64,000 nt of DNA from Thermodesulfobacteriota bacterium (GTDB lineage: Bacteria > Desulfobacterota > BSN033 > UBA1163). The position numbers and the translations under genes are program-made. How positions within the stretch are numbered: position 1 is the stretch's first letter; every line of letters starts with the position of its first letter. Below the pieces are notes generated by a model. The model saw nothing but the letters and a program-made list of their open reading frames with translations. It searched no databases and was not told where the DNA came from. Below, in pieces: positions 8,609 to 60,682 of the stretch. The stretch is taken from assembly GCA_030017685.1 (NCBI GenBank), contig JASEHH010000008.1, positions 1 through 64,000 on the forward strand, written 5' to 3'.

Positions 8609-11536
8609 TTACGATGGTTTAAGACCTTCCTTTCTTTTAATTTCCTCAGGTAACAATTCGTCAGAGCGAGTAATCATTTTCACAATATCAGCCACTATCT
8701 CTCTTTCTTCAACCTGAAGACTATAGTATCTCTGGATATCCTTACTATAAATGATCTCTATTGCCATAATGATTGGTTTCAAGAGTTCTCGATAATCGTC
8801 TCCTTTTAGTGTTATAATTTCATTCACTGCAGCCTTGATGAGCGAAATTTCTCCGGTGCTCGCTGTCTTCTTTAGGAATGTCATTGTTAATTCAGCAATA
8901 TTGTTAGCTTTCAGTTTATAGCTTTTACTATAGGCACTCTCGATCAATTTTCCTGCGTTTCCGCGATTACCAACTTTCAGTTCATTGATCGCAATACTAA
9001 AACTGATATCTATAAGGTTTACAAGGGCATATTCATAATCTGGGTCAATTTTTATTGCTTTTTCAAGGGCTTGCAGTGCCTCCTCGTATCTGCTGAGATT
9101 TTCTAATGTTAATCCCTTATTTGTGAGCGCCCATTTATCATTTGGGTCGATTTCTAGTGCCTTATTAAAGACTTCCAATGCCTCCTCATACCTGCCTAAT
9201 TTTGCCAAAGTAGATCCCTTGTGTGAAATGGTTTCTTCATTTTTAGAATTAATTTCCAATGCTTTATCAAAAATTTTTAAAGCATCCTCATGCCGATGTA
9301 GCCCGCAACTTAAAACATGACCCTTTTGTGTAAGTAAGTCTATATCATTTGGGTTATTTTCTAAAGCACGGTTAAAAGTATCTAATGCTTCCACGGATTT
9401 TCCCAAAAATACTAATGCGATACCCTTATAATACAATGTATAGTCGCAATTCGGTTCAATTTCTAGAGCCTTGTTGAAAGCCTCCAATCCTTCATCTTCT
9501 CTATTGAGATTAAATAACGCCAATCCTTTATTTGCTAAAGCACGATGGTCCTTTGGATCGATTTTAATAGATTCATTTAAAATTTCCAGTGCCTCTTCAA
9601 ACCTGTCAATGTTTAATAAAACCTCTCCCTTATTAGCCAATGTATAGCTATCATTTGGATCGATTTCGAGAGCCTTATTGAAAGCTTCCAATGCCTCCTC
9701 ATATCGGTTGAGGTTAACTAATGCAAAGCCTTTTCTTGATAAGGCATAAGCATCCATTGGATCGATTTTGAGAGCCTTATTGAAGGCTTCCAATGCATTC
9801 TCATATCGGTTGAGAGTTAACAACAAGGATCCTTTATTTTCTAGTGTAATGCCATCCGTTGGATCGATTTTGAGAGCCTTATTGAAAGCTTCCAATGCCT
9901 CCTCATATCGGTTAAGAATAAATAATGCAATGCCTTTTCCTGATAAGGCATAAGCATCCGTTGGATCGATTTCGAGAGCCTTATTGAAGGCTTCCAATGC
10001 CTCATCATATCGATCAAGACTTTCTAACGCGTCACCTTTCCCTTTGAGAGCAAGTTCGTTTTTGGGATTAATTCCTAGAACCTTGTCGAAGGCTTCCAGT
10101 GCATTTTCATATCTTTCTTTAGAAAGAAGTAGGGATCCCTCATACAAGGTTATAATATTTTTTAATTTATCATTTTTAGTATCAGTTGCAGTTTCCTTAA
10201 GTTTCTGAATTTCATATTCAGCCTCATCCCACTCGCCAAGGGCTAGCAGTTTGGATGTAACTTTCAGTAGAGCATCTGGCTTAAATTTAAGTGGTAAAGT
10301 TTCAGCATAGTAGCATATGTCTCTGATTGCAGTTCTTTCCCCAGCTTCAAGAAGTTCAAATTTTGCTTTAAAAAGTTCTCTCCGTTCGTCCGGGGTATAC
10401 CAAAGTTGTAAGAACTCCATAAGAATCGAAACCCTTTTTCGGCCAAAAGGCTGCCTCATCTCCCTCCATAGCCGAAAGAGCCTTTCCCTCACTTCGTAAT
10501 AGGTCCGTCTCCCAGTAGGCCTTGAGATAATATATCCATCCTTCTCCAATCTCCTAAGCTGCGTTGTTACAGTGGGGAGGTCGATTCTGGCTTTATTTGA
10601 GATTTGTTTGGGAGTAATAGGTGCCCCAGCTGAGATGAGTATATCGAAAATTCTTCTTCGCTGCGTTGGTAAAATCTGAAATATCTCTTGATAATAAGGG
10701 GTATGCTCATCAATTATTTTCAAAAAAGCTTTCTCTATATTCTCAAGTTCTCCTTTTGTGATCATCTCATAAAACAGTATAACAAGCCTTGGACTGCCAC
10801 CTGTGAGATGAGCCATGCCGTGAATCCTCGGCTCATATTTTTTGAATTCTTCAATGAATTTATTATTTCCCTCTACTTCTGCAATTTTTTGGATTAACTC
10901 CATTATCTCAGGAAGTGAAAACTCTCTAAGGTGTTGAACATCGAAAAAATTAAAAAAGGGTTCCTCATGGTCGGATATAGCTGGGAAAATCATTGGTGCG
11001 GTAGCTATAATAGAAAAGAAATTATGTTCTTGAAAGATGGACCTCAATTTTTGTAATTCCTCTGTATCTAGCTGTCTGAATAGTTCATGCAGGTTTTCAA
11101 CAAAGATGACATACCCTTTCTTATCTCTTTTTGATATCTGTTTAAGCTTTTCTAATGCGGCATCAAGGATTTCATCTTCTTCCTTGGAAGAAAGAATATC
11201 TGAGGTCATTTCTGATTTCTCTTCTAATATTCTCAGTAAAAGGTCAGATGCACGGAAAACAGAATATTCTTCTTCGGCGAGTTTGATTGGGATCAGCAGG
11301 GAACCCAATTTATTCTGGATTTCAAAGTATAGCAAGACTAAGAAATGTGATTTCCCAATTCCCCTTGGTCCTACAATTAAATAGAATCTTGGAGTCTTTT
11401 TTCTTGCTGCATTTTCAATTTCCTTAAAGAGACTTTCGAGAAGCTTTTGTCTACCTACGAAAAGCTTCTCCAGGGTGGTTTTATCCATGTTTTCTGGTGA
11501 AAATCTGTAAAAAATGATGTTACTCGATGTCGCCAT
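8609..11536 (-). CDS. STAND-like P-loop ATPase with winged helix and C-terminal TPR array
   Basis: 975 aa; Walker A IVGPRGIGKSHF, VIFVENLHELF, wHTH (ITPKQISNKARIDLPTVTTQLRRLEKDGYIISRPTGRRTYYEV), then many 34-aa repeats (YEEALEAFNKALEIDPND). Confidence 0.85.
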   Translation of the reverse strand: MATSSNIIFYRFSPENMDKTTLEKLFVGRQKLLESLFKEIENAARKKTPRFYLIVGPRGIGKSHFLVLLYFEIQNKLGSLLIPIKLAEEEYSVFRASDLLLRILEEKSEMTSDILSSKEEDEILDAALEKLKQISKRDKKGYVIFVENLHELFRQLDTEELQKLRSIFQEHNFFSIIATAPMIFPAISDHEEPFFNFFDVQHLREFSLPEIMELIQKIAEVEGNNKFIEEFKKYEPRIHGMAHLTGGSPRLVILFYEMITKGELENIEKAFLKIIDEHTPYYQEIFQILPTQRRRIFDILISAGAPITPKQISNKARIDLPTVTTQLRRLEKDGYIISRPTGRRTYYEVRERLFRLWREMRQPFGRKRVSILMEFLQLWYTPDERRELFKAKFELLEAGERTAIRDICYYAETLPLKFKPDALLKVTSKLLALGEWDEAEYEIQKLKETATDTKNDKLKNIITLYEGSLLLSKERYENALEAFDKVLGINPKNELALKGKGDALESLDRYDEALEAFNKALEIDPTDAYALSGKGIALFILNRYEEALEAFNKALKIDPTDGITLENKGSLLLTLNRYENALEAFNKALKIDPMDAYALSRKGFALVNLNRYEEALEAFNKALEIDPNDSYTLANKGEVLLNIDRFEEALEILNESIKIDPKDHRALANKGLALFNLNREDEGLEAFNKALEIEPNCDYTLYYKGIALVFLGKSVEALDTFNRALENNPNDIDLLTQKGHVLSCGLHRHEDALKIFDKALEINSKNEETISHKGSTLAKLGRYEEALEVFNKALEIDPNDKWALTNKGLTLENLSRYEEALQALEKAIKIDPDYEYALVNLIDISFSIAINELKVGNRGNAGKLIESAYSKSYKLKANNIAELTMTFLKKTASTGEISLIKAAVNEIITLKGDDYRELLKPIIMAIEIIYSKDIQRYYSLQVEEREIVADIVKMITRSDELLPEEIKRKEGLKPS
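9557..10020 (-). repeat. 102-bp (34-codon) coding tandem repeats with high nucleotide identity inside the TPR gene
   Basis: Unit GGATCGATTT[TC]GAGAGCCTTATTGAA[AG]GCTTCCAATGC...CTCATATCGGTT repeats at 102-bp spacing. Confidence 0.85.
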
Positions 11537-19314: not shown

Positions 19315-19402
19315 ACAGTTCGGAGTAAAAACTTATCCTTTTAGAATCCAGAAATCAGAATCCAGAATCCAGAATCCAGAATTAAAATATCCAACGTCCA
19401 AA

Positions 19403-35273: not shown

Positions 35274-35278
35274 TAAAA

Positions 35279-35351
35279 ATTCGGAGTTCGGAGTCCACAG
35301 TTCGGAGTTTTTTTTATTTACTCCAAACTCCGAACTCATTACTCCGAACTT
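35279..35351. repeat. GTTCGGAGT word hairpin, right arm overlapping the end of the AI-2E-type transporter gene
   Basis: TTCGGAGTTCGGAGTCCACAGTTCGGAG...CTCCAAACTCCGAACTCATTACTCCGAACTT. Confidence 0.85.
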
Positions 35352-36403: not shown

Positions 36404-36441
36404 TTTTAATTCCGCCTTTTTGCAGATGCGGGGTCAGCCGT

Positions 36442-37053
36442 CTATCGTCTATCGTCTATCGTCCTCAATCTATGTTCTTTATGACTTCTTACAAGATAGA
36501 TCAAGGGAAGACTGACGAGGGTGATGGCCATCTTCACCACATACTGACCTTTGATCAGGGGCCAGACCGGCATGAGACCATAGAAGGCAAGGGTGATGAA
36601 GACCACACTGTCCACCCCGGTCGAGAGCGTATTGCTCACCAGAACCCTCAACCACTTCGGGCCACGGATACGGGATCTCCAGAAGGCAAAGATCTCCGTA
36701 TCGATGAGCGAACTGATCAGGTATGCCGTAAGACTTGCAAAGACGATCCTTGGAGTGCTTCCCAGGACACCTGCAAAACCTTCCTGCCCTTTATAGAAAG
36801 GGGCAGAAGGAAGGGCAACGGCAAATTGGGCATAGGCCGCGAGGAGGAGGTTTGCGATGAAAGCGGTCAGGATCACCCTCCGGGCTCCCTGTTTGCCCAT
36901 CGATTCGTTGATCAGGTCAATGAGGGTGAAGGTGAGGGCATAGATGAAGATGGCCGCCGGAACGACCAGGCCTCCTATCTGGACGGGTTTGGAAGCGGTC
37001 ACATTGGCGATCAACTCACAGGCGATATAGAGTCCGATCAGGATCGTATCCAT
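36442..37053 (-). CDS. VUT/YhhQ family queuosine precursor transporter
   Basis: ELIANVTASKPVQIGGLVVPAAIFIYALTFTLIDLINESMGKQGARRVI...IVFASLTAYLISSLIDTEIFAFWR. Confidence 0.85.
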   Translation of the reverse strand: MDTILIGLYIACELIANVTASKPVQIGGLVVPAAIFIYALTFTLIDLINESMGKQGARRVILTAFIANLLLAAYAQFAVALPSAPFYKGQEGFAGVLGSTPRIVFASLTAYLISSLIDTEIFAFWRSRIRGPKWLRVLVSNTLSTGVDSVVFITLAFYGLMPVWPLIKGQYVVKMAITLVSLPLIYLVRSHKEHRLRTIDDRR

Positions 37054-37079
37054 TGCTCAGGAGATAAGAGTTTCGTTCA

Positions 37080-37229
37080 ACGGTAACGGTAAGGATGCCC
37101 GTATCGTTAATAAAAGGTTATGTTTGTCGTCTCTCGATTCTTTACATGAAACCGTAACCGATAACCGAAACGGGCCCTGAACCTAACATGGTACAGGGCG
37201 GGCTTCGTAACCGTAACCGAAACCTAAGA
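37080..37229. repeat. Family G palindromic element, copy 2
   Basis: Contains CCCTGAACCTAACATGGTACAGGGCGGGC (inverse of the 16401 copy core) and shares ~60 bp with the 42495 copy. Confidence 0.85.
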
Positions 37230-37288
37230 ACTTGAGTAATTTTCATTGTTCAAGGGTGATGAAGCCGTCATGAAAGATTCCGAAGGAT

Positions 37289-37726: not shown

Positions 37727-37751
37727 ATCGACCTCCTCCACAAAGATGATT

Positions 37752-37882
37752 ATTGGAATAGTGGAAGGTTGGGTTGAACACTTTGAGGCTTAGGTTAAGG
37801 TCAAGATTTTCTTAACCTCATCCTTAGCCTTAACCTTTTATTTTTCCAATATTCCAACATTCCATTATCCCAGTATTCCAAT
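37752..37882. repeat. Word hairpin (ATTGGAATAGTGGAAGGTTGG) with inner GGTTAAGG hairpin
   Basis: Left arm 37752-37772, right arm CCAATATTCCAACATTCCATTATCCCAGTATTCCAAT 37846-37882; inner AGGCTTAGGTTAAGG / CCTTAGCCTTAACC. Confidence 0.8.
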
Positions 37883-37930
37883 TTATACCAATTTTACTTT
37901 CTTAAGGCAACAGAAAAGAGATATAGGTGC

Positions 37931-38135
37931 AATTCAGACACTGGACTTCAGACGTAAGACATCAGACTCCTCTAATAGATGAAATTAATTCTATATTTCA
38001 CTCTTTTGAAATTTTTTCGTGTATACCAAGAGTGCCATTTCCACTGTTACCTGTTAATCTTTTATCTTTATGTCATCTCTGGCTATTTCTACTCTTCAGT
38101 CTAAATTCTGATGTCTATAGTCTTACTGTCTGAAT
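37931..38135. repeat. Word hairpin (CAGAC words)
   Basis: ATTCAGACACTGGACTTCAGACGTAAGACATCAGACT and inverse AGTCTAAATTCTGATGTCTATAGTCTTACTGTCTGAAT. Confidence 0.75.
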
Positions 38136-38334
38136 CACAGAGATATAGGAATCCCCGTTAAAATGGGAAGGGAGGTATCGAAAAAACCGATTTGACTTCT
38201 TTCGTCAAGAGATTAAAATAGTCTGGAGAAGACCGTTGGCAAGAGGAGATGCAGGAGTGAAGATCGATAGGGTCCATCTGATAGAGAGATATTTTAAGAA
38301 ATTGAGATTGAAATTATCCAACAGGAGGAGAGGA

Positions 38335-40432: not shown

Positions 40433-40619
40433 CAAATCCCAAGCACCAATCACCAAATAATCTCCAAATTCCAATAACCAAAACTGAAATAAGTTATGTG
40501 AATTACGGTATTGATTTTTTACATTTGGAATTTGGTGATTCCTGCCTGCCGGCAGGCAGGGGATATTATTTGGTGTTTGACCTGCCTGCAGCAGGCAGGG
40601 ATTTGGTGATTGGGATTTG
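40433..40619. repeat. Word hairpin (CCAATCACCAAAT) with two inserted micropalindromes
   Basis: CAAATCCCAAGCACCAATCACCAAAT...ATTTGGTGATTGGGATTTG; CCTGCCTGCCGGCAGGCAGG at 40541-40560 and CCTGCCTGCAGCAGGCAGG at 40581-40599. Confidence 0.9.
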
Positions 40620-42370: not shown

Positions 42371-42494
42371 AAATAATTAATAACACTGTTTCTTAATGTA
42401 GTCAACGAAACCGCGGCAGGAGGATCAGGAGGTTAAGATTCTGATTTGAAATTTTTGAAAAACCATTGAAATTTCTGTCATCGTTTTCTCGATT

Positions 42495-42611
42495 TCGGTA
42501 ACGGTTACGAAGCCCGTTTCAGTTACGTAAAAAGAATTAAGAGACGATAAACGTAGCCTTTTATTAACGATACGGGCCTCGTTACCCTTACCGTTAGCCT
42601 TTTATTTTCTA
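42495..42611. repeat. Family G palindromic element, copy 3
   Basis: GGTAACGGTTACGAAGCCCG...TTAACGATACGGGCCTCGTTACCCTTACCGTTAGCCTTTTATTTTCTA. Confidence 0.85.
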
Positions 42612-42616
42612 ATCAA

Positions 42617-45122: not shown

Positions 45123-45138
45123 CTGCGAGATAAATACA

Positions 45139-45256
45139 TGGAATAATGGAAGATTGGAATACTGGAAGGTTGGGTTTGTATTACAGTTTGCAAAAGTAAT
45201 AAATCTTCCCCATTATTCCCTGTGTGCCGACAGGCAGGCATTATTCCAACATTCCA
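45139..45256. repeat. Word hairpin (GGAAGATTGGAATACTGGAAGG) containing a degenerate micropalindrome
   Basis: ATAATGGAAGATTGGAATACTGGAAGG...CATTATTCCAACATTCCAT; CCTGTGTGCCGACAGGCAGG at 45219-45238. Confidence 0.75.
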
Positions 45257-46310: not shown

Positions 46311-46488
46311 ACCAGTTCGGAGTAATGAGTTCGCCTGTCCGTCCGGTAGGCGGGGAGTTCGGAGATCAGAAAAAAATAAAAAAGGTCGGAGTTCGGAGTA
46401 ATGAGTTCGGAGTTTTTCAAAAAATTTTCAAGTCTTTTTTATTTTACACAATTACTCCGAACCCCGAACTCTGAACTCCGAACTTATC
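46311..46488. repeat. GTTCGGAGT word hairpin (large)
   Basis: CAGTTCGGAGTAATGAGTTCG...GGTCGGAGTTCGGAGTAATGAGTTCGGAG...ATTACTCCGAACCCCGAACTCTGAACTCCGAAC. Confidence 0.85.
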
Positions 46489-47340: not shown

Positions 47341-47437
47341 AGTGACCTAAAGTGACTAAAGTGCCTAAAATGCCTAAAGTTTAAAATCTTTTCTCACTTT
47401 AGTTCACTTCAAACTTTAGATCACTTTAGTCACTTTT
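47341..47437. repeat. Word hairpin (AAAGTGACT)
   Basis: AGTGACCTAAAGTGACTAAAGTGCC...CACTTTAGTTCACTTCAAACTTTAGATCACTTTAGTCACTTT. Confidence 0.8.
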
Positions 47438-49396: not shown

Positions 49397-49618
49397 AGAA
49401 GATGGGGAGATGGGGGGATAGGGAGGTGGGGAGAACAAATGCGGATTTCGGATTGCGGAATGCGGAATGAAAACACGAATACAGAGATAGGGAGGTGGGG
49501 AGACGCGGTGATAAAGTTCGGAGTTTAAAGTTCGGATTTTAGATTTTGGATTTAAAAACTTGAAACTTGCATCTTGAACCTTGCAACTTGCAACTATCTA
49601 CACCTAACACTGATTAAA

Positions 49619-49757
49619 TCGTAAAAAGGTCATTCCCGTGAAAACGGGAATCCAGAGAATTCTAACTACTTGAAAATGCTGGATTCCTGCTGGAGTTTAC
49701 CCCGTACTTGATACGGGGCAGGAATGACTGATGATGGGCTTTTCAGACTTTTTACGA
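49619..49757. repeat. Palindromic TIR element (family D), copy 1
   Basis: TCGTAAAAAGGTCATTCCCGTGAAAACGGGAATCCAGAG...CAGGAATGACTG...CAGACTTTTTACGA. Confidence 0.9.
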
Positions 49758-49768
49758 GACAATCAACA

Positions 49769-51091
49769 CTATGTATCATTCATTTCTCCGGCGGGTTCGG
49801 GAAGTTTTTCTAATTTTACCTTTGAGATCCTCCTACCCACCATTTCAACGATATGAATTCTTTTTCCTTCAACCTCCACCCAATCATTGTCCTCAGGAAT
49901 CTTTTGCAGAGTGGCCATCAGGAATCCCCCCAGGGTTTCGTATTCAGGGGATTCCGGAAGTGAGATCTGATAGTCCTCTTTTAAATCTCTCAGGCTGATC
50001 GATGCATCGATCAGGAGGGTTCCGTCTTTCAACGGGGTAACAGGACTTTCGGTATCATGTTCGTCCCTGATCTCCCCAACAATCTCTTCGATCAAATCCT
50101 CGATGGTCACTAAACCAGAAACGCCGCCATATTCATCTACCACGAGGGCCATATGGATTCTTCTCTTTTGCATTTCTTTTAGGAGGAGACTGATGTTCAT
50201 TGTCTCGGGGATAAAGAAAGGGGCACGGATGGTCTTCCGAATATCCACCTGGCCTGTTTTTCCAAGGAGGGTAAGAAAATCTTTTGCATTGAGGATTCCT
50301 CTGATGTCATTCGGCTCCCTTCCGAAGACAGGGTATCGGGAGAACTGTTCCTCTTCGATGATTGAAAGAATTTCCTGGGTTGGTCGATCGATCTGGATCG
50401 CTACCATCTGTGTGTCGGGGACCATCACTTCTTTGACAGACATGTCCGTAAATTCAAAAACGCTTTGAAGGATCTTTTCTTCCGTAGACTCAAAAACGCC
50501 ATGTTTTCCGCCTTCTTTGATCAAGAGCTTTACCTCTTCTTCGGTAATATAAGCCCTTTCAGTAAAAGGCTTTCTACCAAAGGGGGCGAGCACGAGGGAG
50601 GTGCTGAAGGTGAGAAACTTGACAAAGATGGAAGCAACCTTTGAAAAAGCATCAACGGTTCTTGCGGTCCAGAGCCCGACTGTTTCAGGATGCATCAAAG
50701 CAATGGACTTCGGCACGAGTTCACCGAAGATCACGGAGAAATAAGTAATCAAGACGACCACGATCCCAATGGCAATAGGCTCAGCGGCAATTGAGATGGC
50801 TTTTATGGGAACCGACTGTAAGGCCGGTTTGATCACCTCGGCAGCGGCGGCTCCTCCAACCGCAGAGGCAAGAACACTCACGCCGGTAATTCCAATTTGG
50901 ATCGTTGCTAAAAACCGGTCAGGATTTTCTTTCAGCCTCAGCAAGATTTTCGCATTTCTTTTTCCACTTTCAACCATCTGCTGGACCCGGCTCTTCCTGG
51001 CCGTGACCACGGCGATCTCTGTGCCGGCGAGATAACCATTCAAGAGAATAAGGATGGCAATAAAAAATACCTCTCCAAAAAGTTCTTGCAT
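49769..51091 (-). CDS. Hemolysin family / CNNM-CorC-type transporter (DUF21, CBS, CorC_HlyC)
   Basis: GYLAGTEIAVVTARKSRVQQMV, VKEVMVPDTQMVAI, MALVVDEYGGVSGLVTIEDLIEEIVGEIRDEHD. Confidence 0.95.
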   Translation of the reverse strand: MQELFGEVFFIAILILLNGYLAGTEIAVVTARKSRVQQMVESGKRNAKILLRLKENPDRFLATIQIGITGVSVLASAVGGAAAAEVIKPALQSVPIKAISIAAEPIAIGIVVVLITYFSVIFGELVPKSIALMHPETVGLWTARTVDAFSKVASIFVKFLTFSTSLVLAPFGRKPFTERAYITEEEVKLLIKEGGKHGVFESTEEKILQSVFEFTDMSVKEVMVPDTQMVAIQIDRPTQEILSIIEEEQFSRYPVFGREPNDIRGILNAKDFLTLLGKTGQVDIRKTIRAPFFIPETMNISLLLKEMQKRRIHMALVVDEYGGVSGLVTIEDLIEEIVGEIRDEHDTESPVTPLKDGTLLIDASISLRDLKEDYQISLPESPEYETLGGFLMATLQKIPEDNDWVEVEGKRIHIVEMVGRRISKVKLEKLPEPAGEMNDT

Positions 51092-51145
51092 TTCGACCTC
51101 CCTACCTTTTCATAAAAATATGGAAGAAGTTTAAAAATGGTAGAA

Positions 51146-51262
51146 TCGTAAAAAGTCGTCATTCCCGTGAAAACGGGAATCCAGAGAATTTAACTAAATG
51201 AAAATACTGGATTCCTGCTTGCGCAGGAATGACAGAAAATCTCCCTTTCAGATTTTTTACGA
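51146..51262. repeat. Palindromic TIR element (family D), copy 2
   Basis: TCGTAAAAAGTCGTCATTCCCGTGAAAACGGGAATCCAGAG...GGATTCCTGCTTGCGCAGGAATGACAG...CAGATTTTTTACGA. Confidence 0.9.
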
Positions 51263-51331
51263 GACCATCAAAAATGACAGAAGAAAACTGTCGGGTTTCA
51301 TTCAACAGTTTTTTCGAAGGAAGAGATTTTT

Positions 51332-56469: not shown

Positions 56470-56591
56470 AGACGCATAGCGCATGGCGCATAGAGCATAG
56501 CGTCTTAGATTCAGTTTCAAGTAAGGTTTTCGCTATGCGCTTTGCTCTCTGCCCTATGCGATTTTTTGATAAAGGAGGTGATCAAAGCAAT

Positions 56592-59378: not shown

Positions 59379-59506
59379 TTTCGGAATTCGCCTGCCTGCC
59401 GCAGGCAGGGATTTCGGAATGCGGAATTTTTAATAACATGGTTTAAAGATCTTCTATTCCGCAATCCGCATTCCACATTCCGCAATCGAATAGAAGGGAG
59501 AGTAAG

Positions 59507-59860: not shown

Positions 59861-59943
59861 AAAAACATCAATGCAAAGTGTAAAATTAGCATTGAAAATT
59901 TTAAATTAAGATTGTTAAATTTTCATTTTGCATTTTGCAATGA

Positions 59944-60581: not shown

Positions 60582-60682
60582 AAGGGTTCAAGGAGTCCAG
60601 GGTTTGAGTGGTCAAGTGGGTGTCAAAAAAATTAAAAGGAAAACTTGAATCCTTGAATCCTCGAACCCTCGACCCCTTTGAG
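60582..60682. repeat. Word hairpin (TTGAATCC)
   Basis: AGGGTTCAAGGAGTCCAGGGTTTGAGTGGTCAAG / CTTGAATCCTTGAATCCTCGAACCCTCGACCCC. Confidence 0.75.

Follow-up and report, generated by a model that had tools for sequence, protein, structure and literature searches.

Among the described systems closest to the repeats analyzed here are the intervening sequences (IVSs) of 23S rRNA genes in Leptospira, Coxiella and other bacteria. These are units of ~430 nt with stem-forming inverted ends and an S23p/IVP open reading frame, i.e., a gene of the same protein family as that described below, in the loop, and they too have a sporadic, horizontally acquired distribution (PMC4990558). The function of S23/IVP has been open ever since the rRNA intervening sequences were described, and the open reading frame was long ago suggested to serve mobility (PMC4990558). 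Scattered heptamer repeats have also been reported earlier without an explanation.

The window, i.e., the whole stretch of 64,000 nucleotides analyzed here, represents contig 295 of a 3.96-Mb draft genome that is 92% complete. A preliminary description of it had pointed to imperfect hairpins in many gaps between genes, with arms made of short words repeated with drift, and had suggested one generating mechanism for them all, e.g., slippage plus inversion. The reading that best fits these hairpins makes them gene-less relatives of mobile elements that are similar to the intervening sequences of rRNA.

Iterated words and hairpins in intergenic DNA

In the intergenic DNA within 367 kb of the genome, self-matches at a lag of 7 nt occurred at 80 per 10 kb; coding DNA gave 2.6, and shuffled sequence 0.9. 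This represents a periodicity ~30-fold above that of coding DNA, and periods of 8, 6 and 9 nt were also seen. Multiples of the 7-nt lag gave peaks at 14, 21, 28 and 35 in intergenic DNA, with a smaller series at 8 and 16, and the commonest tandem arrays there had units of 7, 8, 14 and 16 nt. An array was present in ~41% of gaps of at least 60 nt. An inverted partner no more than 120 nt away was found for 32.5% of 120 intergenic arrays, whereas the figure for swapped arrays was 2.3%; reverse or complement controls gave 1.7%–8%. RNA folds at 35278, 47337, 59379, 59861, 60580, 45136 and 56470 had z scores between −3.0 and −9.8 relative to shuffles. A search of Rfam returned no match.

Periodicity, inverted partners and folds thus bear out the hairpins of iterated words, although two of the loci originally listed (19341–19380 and 36437–36465) lack a hairpin, and the GGGGAGAT array at 49400 is largely one-armed. 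Confinement to the window, or an origin in assembly artefacts, is excluded. The arrays and hairpins of the window, none of them assigned to a strand, are as follows (G numbers denote compared genomes).

19343–19382: CCAGAAT tandem words, no hairpin (z = +1.4)
35279–35350: TTCGGAG hairpin (fold z = −9.8)
36439–36465: CGTCTAT tandem words, no hairpin (z = +0.2)
37068–37240: GTTACG (hexamer) hairpin element, found only in this genome among five congeners
37750–37897: outer arms of a TGGAATA-word hairpin
37785–37840: GGTTAAGG (hexamer) hairpin, nested in the TGGAATA loop and missing from the G007 orthologue
40433–40615: CCAAATC hairpin with two inserted CCTGCCTGCC palindromes
42493–42616: GTTACG-family element
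45136–45250: TGGAATA hairpin (CCAAATC hairpin there in G004 and G009)
46316–46483: TTCGGAG hairpin (TGGAATA there in G007, CGATGAA in G004)
47341–47436: AAAGTGACT hairpin adjoining a TTCGGAG remnant (z = −6.7)
49400–49595: composite arrays of GGGGAGAT, ATTGCGG, TTCGGAG and AACTTGA
56473–56560: CGCATAG hairpin (fold and inverted partner)
59379–59487: ATTCCGC hairpin
59870–59942: GCAATGC hairpin (TGGAATA hairpins there in 8 relatives)
60582–60677: TTGAACC hairpin (GGGGAGAT and other words there in relatives)

Alleles were compared between sister species, at three orthologous gaps near 59–61 kb across relatives and at others at 31–51 kb across five congeners. Orthologous gaps held different words, or none. 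The gap at 40433 contains another word in G007 and almost nothing in G009, and at 47341, where the window has the TTCGGAG remnant and AAAGTGACT, G004 and G007 keep a TTCGGAG hairpin. The gap at 59379 holds ATTCCGC in G000 and G004 and other words in G001, G002, G007, G009, G011 and G013–G015 (TTGAACC in G013 and G014; a TTCGGAG hairpin in G002, G007, G009, G011 and G015), and in G005, G006 and G010 it is element-free, with nothing but a ribosome-binding site.

Several further observations concern the same DNA. At the orthologue of the 59379 gap in G009 and G007, the gene upstream takes its stop codon from the TTCGGAG hairpin (unit TAATGAG) and is lengthened by four codons. A REP-like palindrome, CCTGCCTGCCGGCAGGCAGG, occurs inside word hairpins at 40540–40600, 45220–45240, 46330–46350 and 59390–59410, and is missing from the G004 orthologue at 59390. 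A dispersed element of ~130 nt (ATTCCCGTGAAAACGGGAATCCAG ... TTTTTACGAGACCATCA) lies at 51133–51275 and 49610–49770; relatives have dozens of copies of it. Tandem repeats of 102 nt (9465–10113) lie within a 975-aa gene (8609–11536) whose product is probably TPR-like. A gene on the minus strand at 1710–2654, flanked by GGGGTCAGGCYTGCAA inverted repeats, encodes a Y1 transposase fused with a DnaA-like C-terminal domain (NCBIfam REP_Tyr_transpos and DnaA).

Words were grouped in a sample of 1.05 Mb of the 3.96-Mb genome, taken by stretches. It contained 331 arrays, 242 of them in 23 recurring families of at least three members, although frequencies in the 1.05 Mb are slightly biased because the last 20 stretches were picked mostly at TTCGGAG matches. 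Shuffled arrays produced no links to these families. The preliminary view that the words at different loci are unrelated therefore holds only in part: most arrays belong to dispersed families, whereas the observation of one architecture with many words stands. The view that this is not one transposable family was also correct. Word families recur across species, and copies of one family at unrelated places have their loops and outer ends in common. The word TTCGGAG had 58 matches genome-wide (with at most one mismatch) and the reversed word none, and neighboring pairs within a family were inverted, in a single order, in 44 of 44 cases, with no direct pair.

The match between arms was lower within a hairpin than between loci (31.9 versus 35.2, p = 1.7e-4). 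The arms of one hairpin thus resemble each other no better than arms taken from different loci do, which contradicts local fold-back copying, and fold-back copying or arm-to-arm correction was rejected on this basis. The weaker match within hairpins may perhaps reflect selection, or an assembly bias, against perfect inverted repeats. The TAAACTC, CCAAATT and CGAAATT families have a similar scaffold and are told apart by one substitution that recurs in each unit, as though all copies of the word had changed together. Three tandem copies of TTCGGAG, mostly single-armed, occurred across about ten phyla, in no fewer than 116 stretches. Among exact TTCGGAG arrays in other phyla, only 1 of 80 had an IVP gene within 8 kb, and perfect arrays were few in a comparison of the vocabulary with other phyla.

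S23/IVP genes between word arms

At the place corresponding to window position 36404, in the orthologue of the CGTCTAT locus, G007 has an insertion of 514 nt consisting of a word arm, a gene for a four-helix-bundle protein (IVP) and an inverted arm. Searching with PF05635 (23S_rRNA_IVP, S23) gave 16 matches in the genome analyzed here and none in 14 control genomes, and all 12 full-length IVP genes with both flanks covered lay between word arms. The arm words of the IVP genes are nearly all different (TTGAACC, AGGAGTCAG, AAGTTTC, GGGGAGAT, AACTCAT, CCAATAAC, GCAATGC and others). An inverted-arm score of at least 26 was reached by 9 of 15 IVP genes; of the other small genes, only 8 in 275 reached it (p = 3e-9), and about half of the genes with strongly inverted flanks were IVP genes.

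Inverted arms also surrounded 23 of 41 IVP genes in the family and 18 of 27 in other families of the phylum, compared with 2%–4% for a swapped-flank null. On named cyanobacterial and Gemmatimonadota plasmids the proportion was 10/16 (null 6.7%), with near-perfect heptamer arms on plasmids of Nostoc, Calothrix, Anabaena and Gemmatirosa; one copy, on a Pseudanabaena plasmid, had its arms in direct orientation. IVP genes were present in 25 of the 26 genomes with TTCGGAG or TTGAACC arrays, compared with 62 of 122 others (p = 5e-6). For several word families (TGGAATA, GTTACG, CGCATAG) no IVP-bearing copy was seen. Possible IVP remnants in hairpins of the TAAACTC type were not counted, because the matches fall largely in the arm-encoded N-terminus. 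S23/IVP genes were also observed within cas operons, between cas6 and cas4 and between cas10 and cmr3 (stretches L381, L388 and L389).

The 44 IVP genes with arms yielded 944 pairs at non-orthologous places. The word was the same in 65% of the 23 pairs with a protein similarity above 0.6, and in about 0.2% of those below 0.35. Alignments of word-sharing elements extend as far as the outer arm ends, where the homologous blocks break off. One TTGAACC lineage was found in two families (f1 and f11), as was one AGGAGTCAG lineage (f1 and f56). A given protein lineage is accompanied by a word of its own, which makes the word families look unrelated although their layout is one. What unites the hairpins is a protein family, S23/IVP, whose genes occupy the loops of full-length copies.

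The S23/IVP genes between word arms, which are the main result, lie outside the region singled out in the preliminary description (37752–38135). That region contains the TGGAATA hairpin, with the GGTTAAGG hairpin nested in it, and a separate element, which is a gene-less copy of a family with the word CAGAC and has the following features.

37917–37927, no strand: left copy of the target-site duplication AGAGATATAGG (element-free site in G004)
37928–38138, plus strand: gene-less CAGAC-word mobile element with ends TGCAATTCAGACA...TGTCTGAATCAC (end-to-end alignment of 7 copies)
37994–38086, minus strand: remnant of an S23/IVP (PF05635) gene, first ~33 codons (tblastn with the G011 IVP)
38139–38149, no strand: right copy of the target-site duplication AGAGATATAGG (window sequence)

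The ends of this element are sharp across aligned copies; an 11-nt duplication flanks it, and sister species lack it, the orthologous place in G004 being an element-free site. Duplications of 9–14 nt bordered 20 of 23 CAGAC copies, compared with 2.6% for the null. The remnant has 58% amino acid identity with the IVP in a CAGAC element of G011 (tblastn, E = 3e-6) and is clear in the DNA alignment; in the G011 element the IVP gene is interrupted by one internal stop, and an 11-nt duplication is present. There are roughly 25 CAGAC copies here, whereas the congeneric genomes have 0–3. An intact IVP of the CAGAC type was not identified in this genome (92% complete), although gene-less copies have multiplied there. 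Judging from the alignments, the gene-less CAGAC copies are derived from gene-bearing ones. Outside the CAGAC family, about 6 of 92 copies had duplications of at least 9 nt, with 3.3% expected, i.e., no clear excess. The lack of clear duplications in most word families would allow either a non-DDE mechanism or loss of the duplications with age.

Proposed small mobile elements and the alternatives

We consider it likely that the word hairpins represent copies within a superfamily of small mobile elements, in which a complete element would carry an S23/IVP gene in its loop. Sequence comparison establishes the layout, the coupling of protein and word, the copying of whole units, the turnover at orthologous gaps, and the CAGAC duplication with its gene remnant; from these we infer a role of S23/IVP in mobility. 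Points against this reading are the missing excess of duplications outside the CAGAC family, the word families in which no IVP-bearing copy was seen, the failure to identify an intact CAGAC-type IVP, the lack of a known catalytic activity in S23/IVP proteins, the mostly single-armed TTCGGAG arrays of other phyla with their scarcity of nearby IVP genes, and the direct arms of the Pseudanabaena copy. A full unit comprises an arm of an iterated 6–9-nt word (mostly 7), an S23/IVP (IVP, TIGR02436) gene and an inverted arm. Most copies would have lost the gene and become simple hairpins, as in MITEs, and units with or without it are copied into new gaps, replaced and lost. The iterated word is a putative recognition site of the cognate S23/IVP protein, which may help its own element and, in trans, gene-less copies to move or to be maintained. 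We know of no catalytic activity in S23/IVP proteins, and a host nuclease, polymerase or reverse transcriptase would probably be supplied for movement. A solved homologue (2gsc in the PDB) has five chains, and S23p is a toroidal homopentamer according to the literature; such an assembly would suit the binding of repeated short words. The hairpins occupy gaps that directly follow stop codons, a position in which they are tolerated and are probably transcribed as stem-loops like rRNA IVSs.

The only reverse transcriptase of the genome (L378, 1318–2802), of retroelement type, lies beside a gene for a variable-type surface protein and looks like that of a diversity-generating retroelement. Pairs spaced around 1.2–1.3 kb (G004:C12, G006:C184) were considered as compound elements and rejected, since ordinary genes lie between them.

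A different reading takes the elements for conventional MITEs that unrelated DDE transposases mobilize, with S23/IVP as a passenger, e.g., an RNA-binding or element-stability protein. The CAGAC family would suit such an origin, with its 9–14-nt duplications and short terminal inverted repeats, which would presumably fit an IS4-type transposase. However, no transposase gene was found between word arms, the genes with inverted flanks being those for IVP, a few housekeeping genes and Y1 transposase genes whose termini were different, and a passenger role leaves the coupling of protein and word unexplained; we regard this origin as unlikely. Mobilization as REP/BIME by RAYT (Y1) transposases would be compatible with the 13 Y1_Tnp matches in the genome and with insertion without duplication in most word families. 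It nevertheless deserves hardly any credence, because GGGGACGT / GGGGTCAGGC termini, and not words, surround the Y1 genes of this genome, and the hairpins differ from REP in length and word structure; the other termini of the Y1/RAYT genes also agree with the earlier judgement that these are not exactly REP/BIME.

The hairpins might also have come first, with S23/IVP genes as separate mobile genes that settled in their loops, much as IVSs stand in place of the loops of rRNA helices 9, 25 and 45 (PMC4990558). Gene-less hairpins do outnumber gene-bearing ones, and other palindromes do insert into word hairpins. This order of events is nonetheless quite improbable, given that protein and word move jointly at unrelated sites, that homology extends to the outer arm ends, that a gene remnant is kept in a gene-less copy and that the duplication brackets the entire unit. 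As for the mechanism first suggested, i.e., independent 7-nt slippage and local inversion at each locus without a mobile element, slippage has been proposed for heptanucleotide repeats, the commonest 5–11-nt repeats in many bacteria (PMC4679880), and the units here do drift and vary in copy number. Yet words, loops and ends are common to many loci and species, polarity is fixed in 44/44 pairs, the arms within one hairpin are not the most alike and insertions are polymorphic among sister species. As a single generating mechanism slippage plus inversion is already contradicted by these results, and its probability is very small.

A broader proposal can be made tentatively. The four-helix-bundle S23/IVP proteins could be a new class of mobile-element machinery, each recognizing its own iterated word and, with no need of a classical transposase, moving or maintaining its element and, in trans, its gene-less hairpins. 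Many intergenic heptamer repeats of bacteria, those of cyanobacteria among them, would then derive from such elements as arms or remains, and rRNA IVSs would form one corner of the class. The linking of S23/IVP with hundreds of gene-less hairpins per genome, at one word per lineage, makes the question of its function directly testable, and would give many puzzling heptamer repeats one common cause. The reported association of the family with CRISPR may be insertion, and S23/IVP "associations" with CRISPR or other operons can in general be mere insertions.

Comparison with described repeats and elements

The preliminary description knew of no named class that fits exactly, and no description of this class was found in the searchable literature, nor, in the open-access literature (subscription journals lying outside that scope), a paper linking S23/IVP genes with heptamer hairpins. 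The 20–40-nt palindrome with a GTAG/CGTC tag that marks REP/BIME was absent, neither feature appearing in consensus alignments, and there was no RAYT gene flanked by the same repeat. ERIC is by description a 127-nt conserved palindromic consensus, whereas here lengths and words vary by family. Like MITEs, the gene-less hairpins are short, dispersed and without a gene, with terminal inverted repeats; the target-site duplication of MITEs is found in the CAGAC family (20/23), with no clear excess in other word families, and the same-ended partners encode S23/IVP and no known transposase. BrickBuilt of Porphyromonas gingivalis is an intergenic MITE with a tandem array (PMC4596501), but its unit is 23 nt, the array forms the body rather than inverted arms, and it has no S23/IVP gene.

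The intergenic tandem 7-mers qualify as heptanucleotide SSRs (LSSR/STRR), but that label leaves the inverted arms, the polarity and the encoded gene unexplained. Such repeats (TAACTGA in Beggiatoaceae; GGGNATC in Xanthomonas and Nostoc) are also intergenic, with the same words in distant phyla (PMC4679880, PMC4692102), but have been described as single-arm arrays, with neither inverted pairing nor an encoded protein. In P6b of the Nostoc trnL(UAA) intron, degenerate heptanucleotide repeats do pair into a hairpin (PMC3488679), although at one fixed intron position. The paired "global regulator binding sites" (classes 1–3) of Geobacter metallireducens consist of 3–5 tandem repeats of 7–8 nt, with pairs on opposite strands at variable distance, and the CAGAC word is similar to the consensus of class 3, MTYCTGA; however, they were read as IHF/HU sites and not as mobile, with no link to S23/IVP (PMC2700814). 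The Avd protein of diversity-generating retroelements is a homologous four-helix-bundle protein (PMC10053308), but works with a reverse transcriptase and a template repeat and has no word arms.

With 23S rRNA IVSs the elements have in common complementary, stem-forming ends and, in full-length forms, the S23/IVP open reading frame in the loop, the window copy being gene-less with a remnant. Unlike IVSs, they lie in gaps between protein-coding genes rather than in a 23S or 16S rRNA gene, have many arm words and many copies together with gene-less derivatives, and show a target-site duplication in one family.
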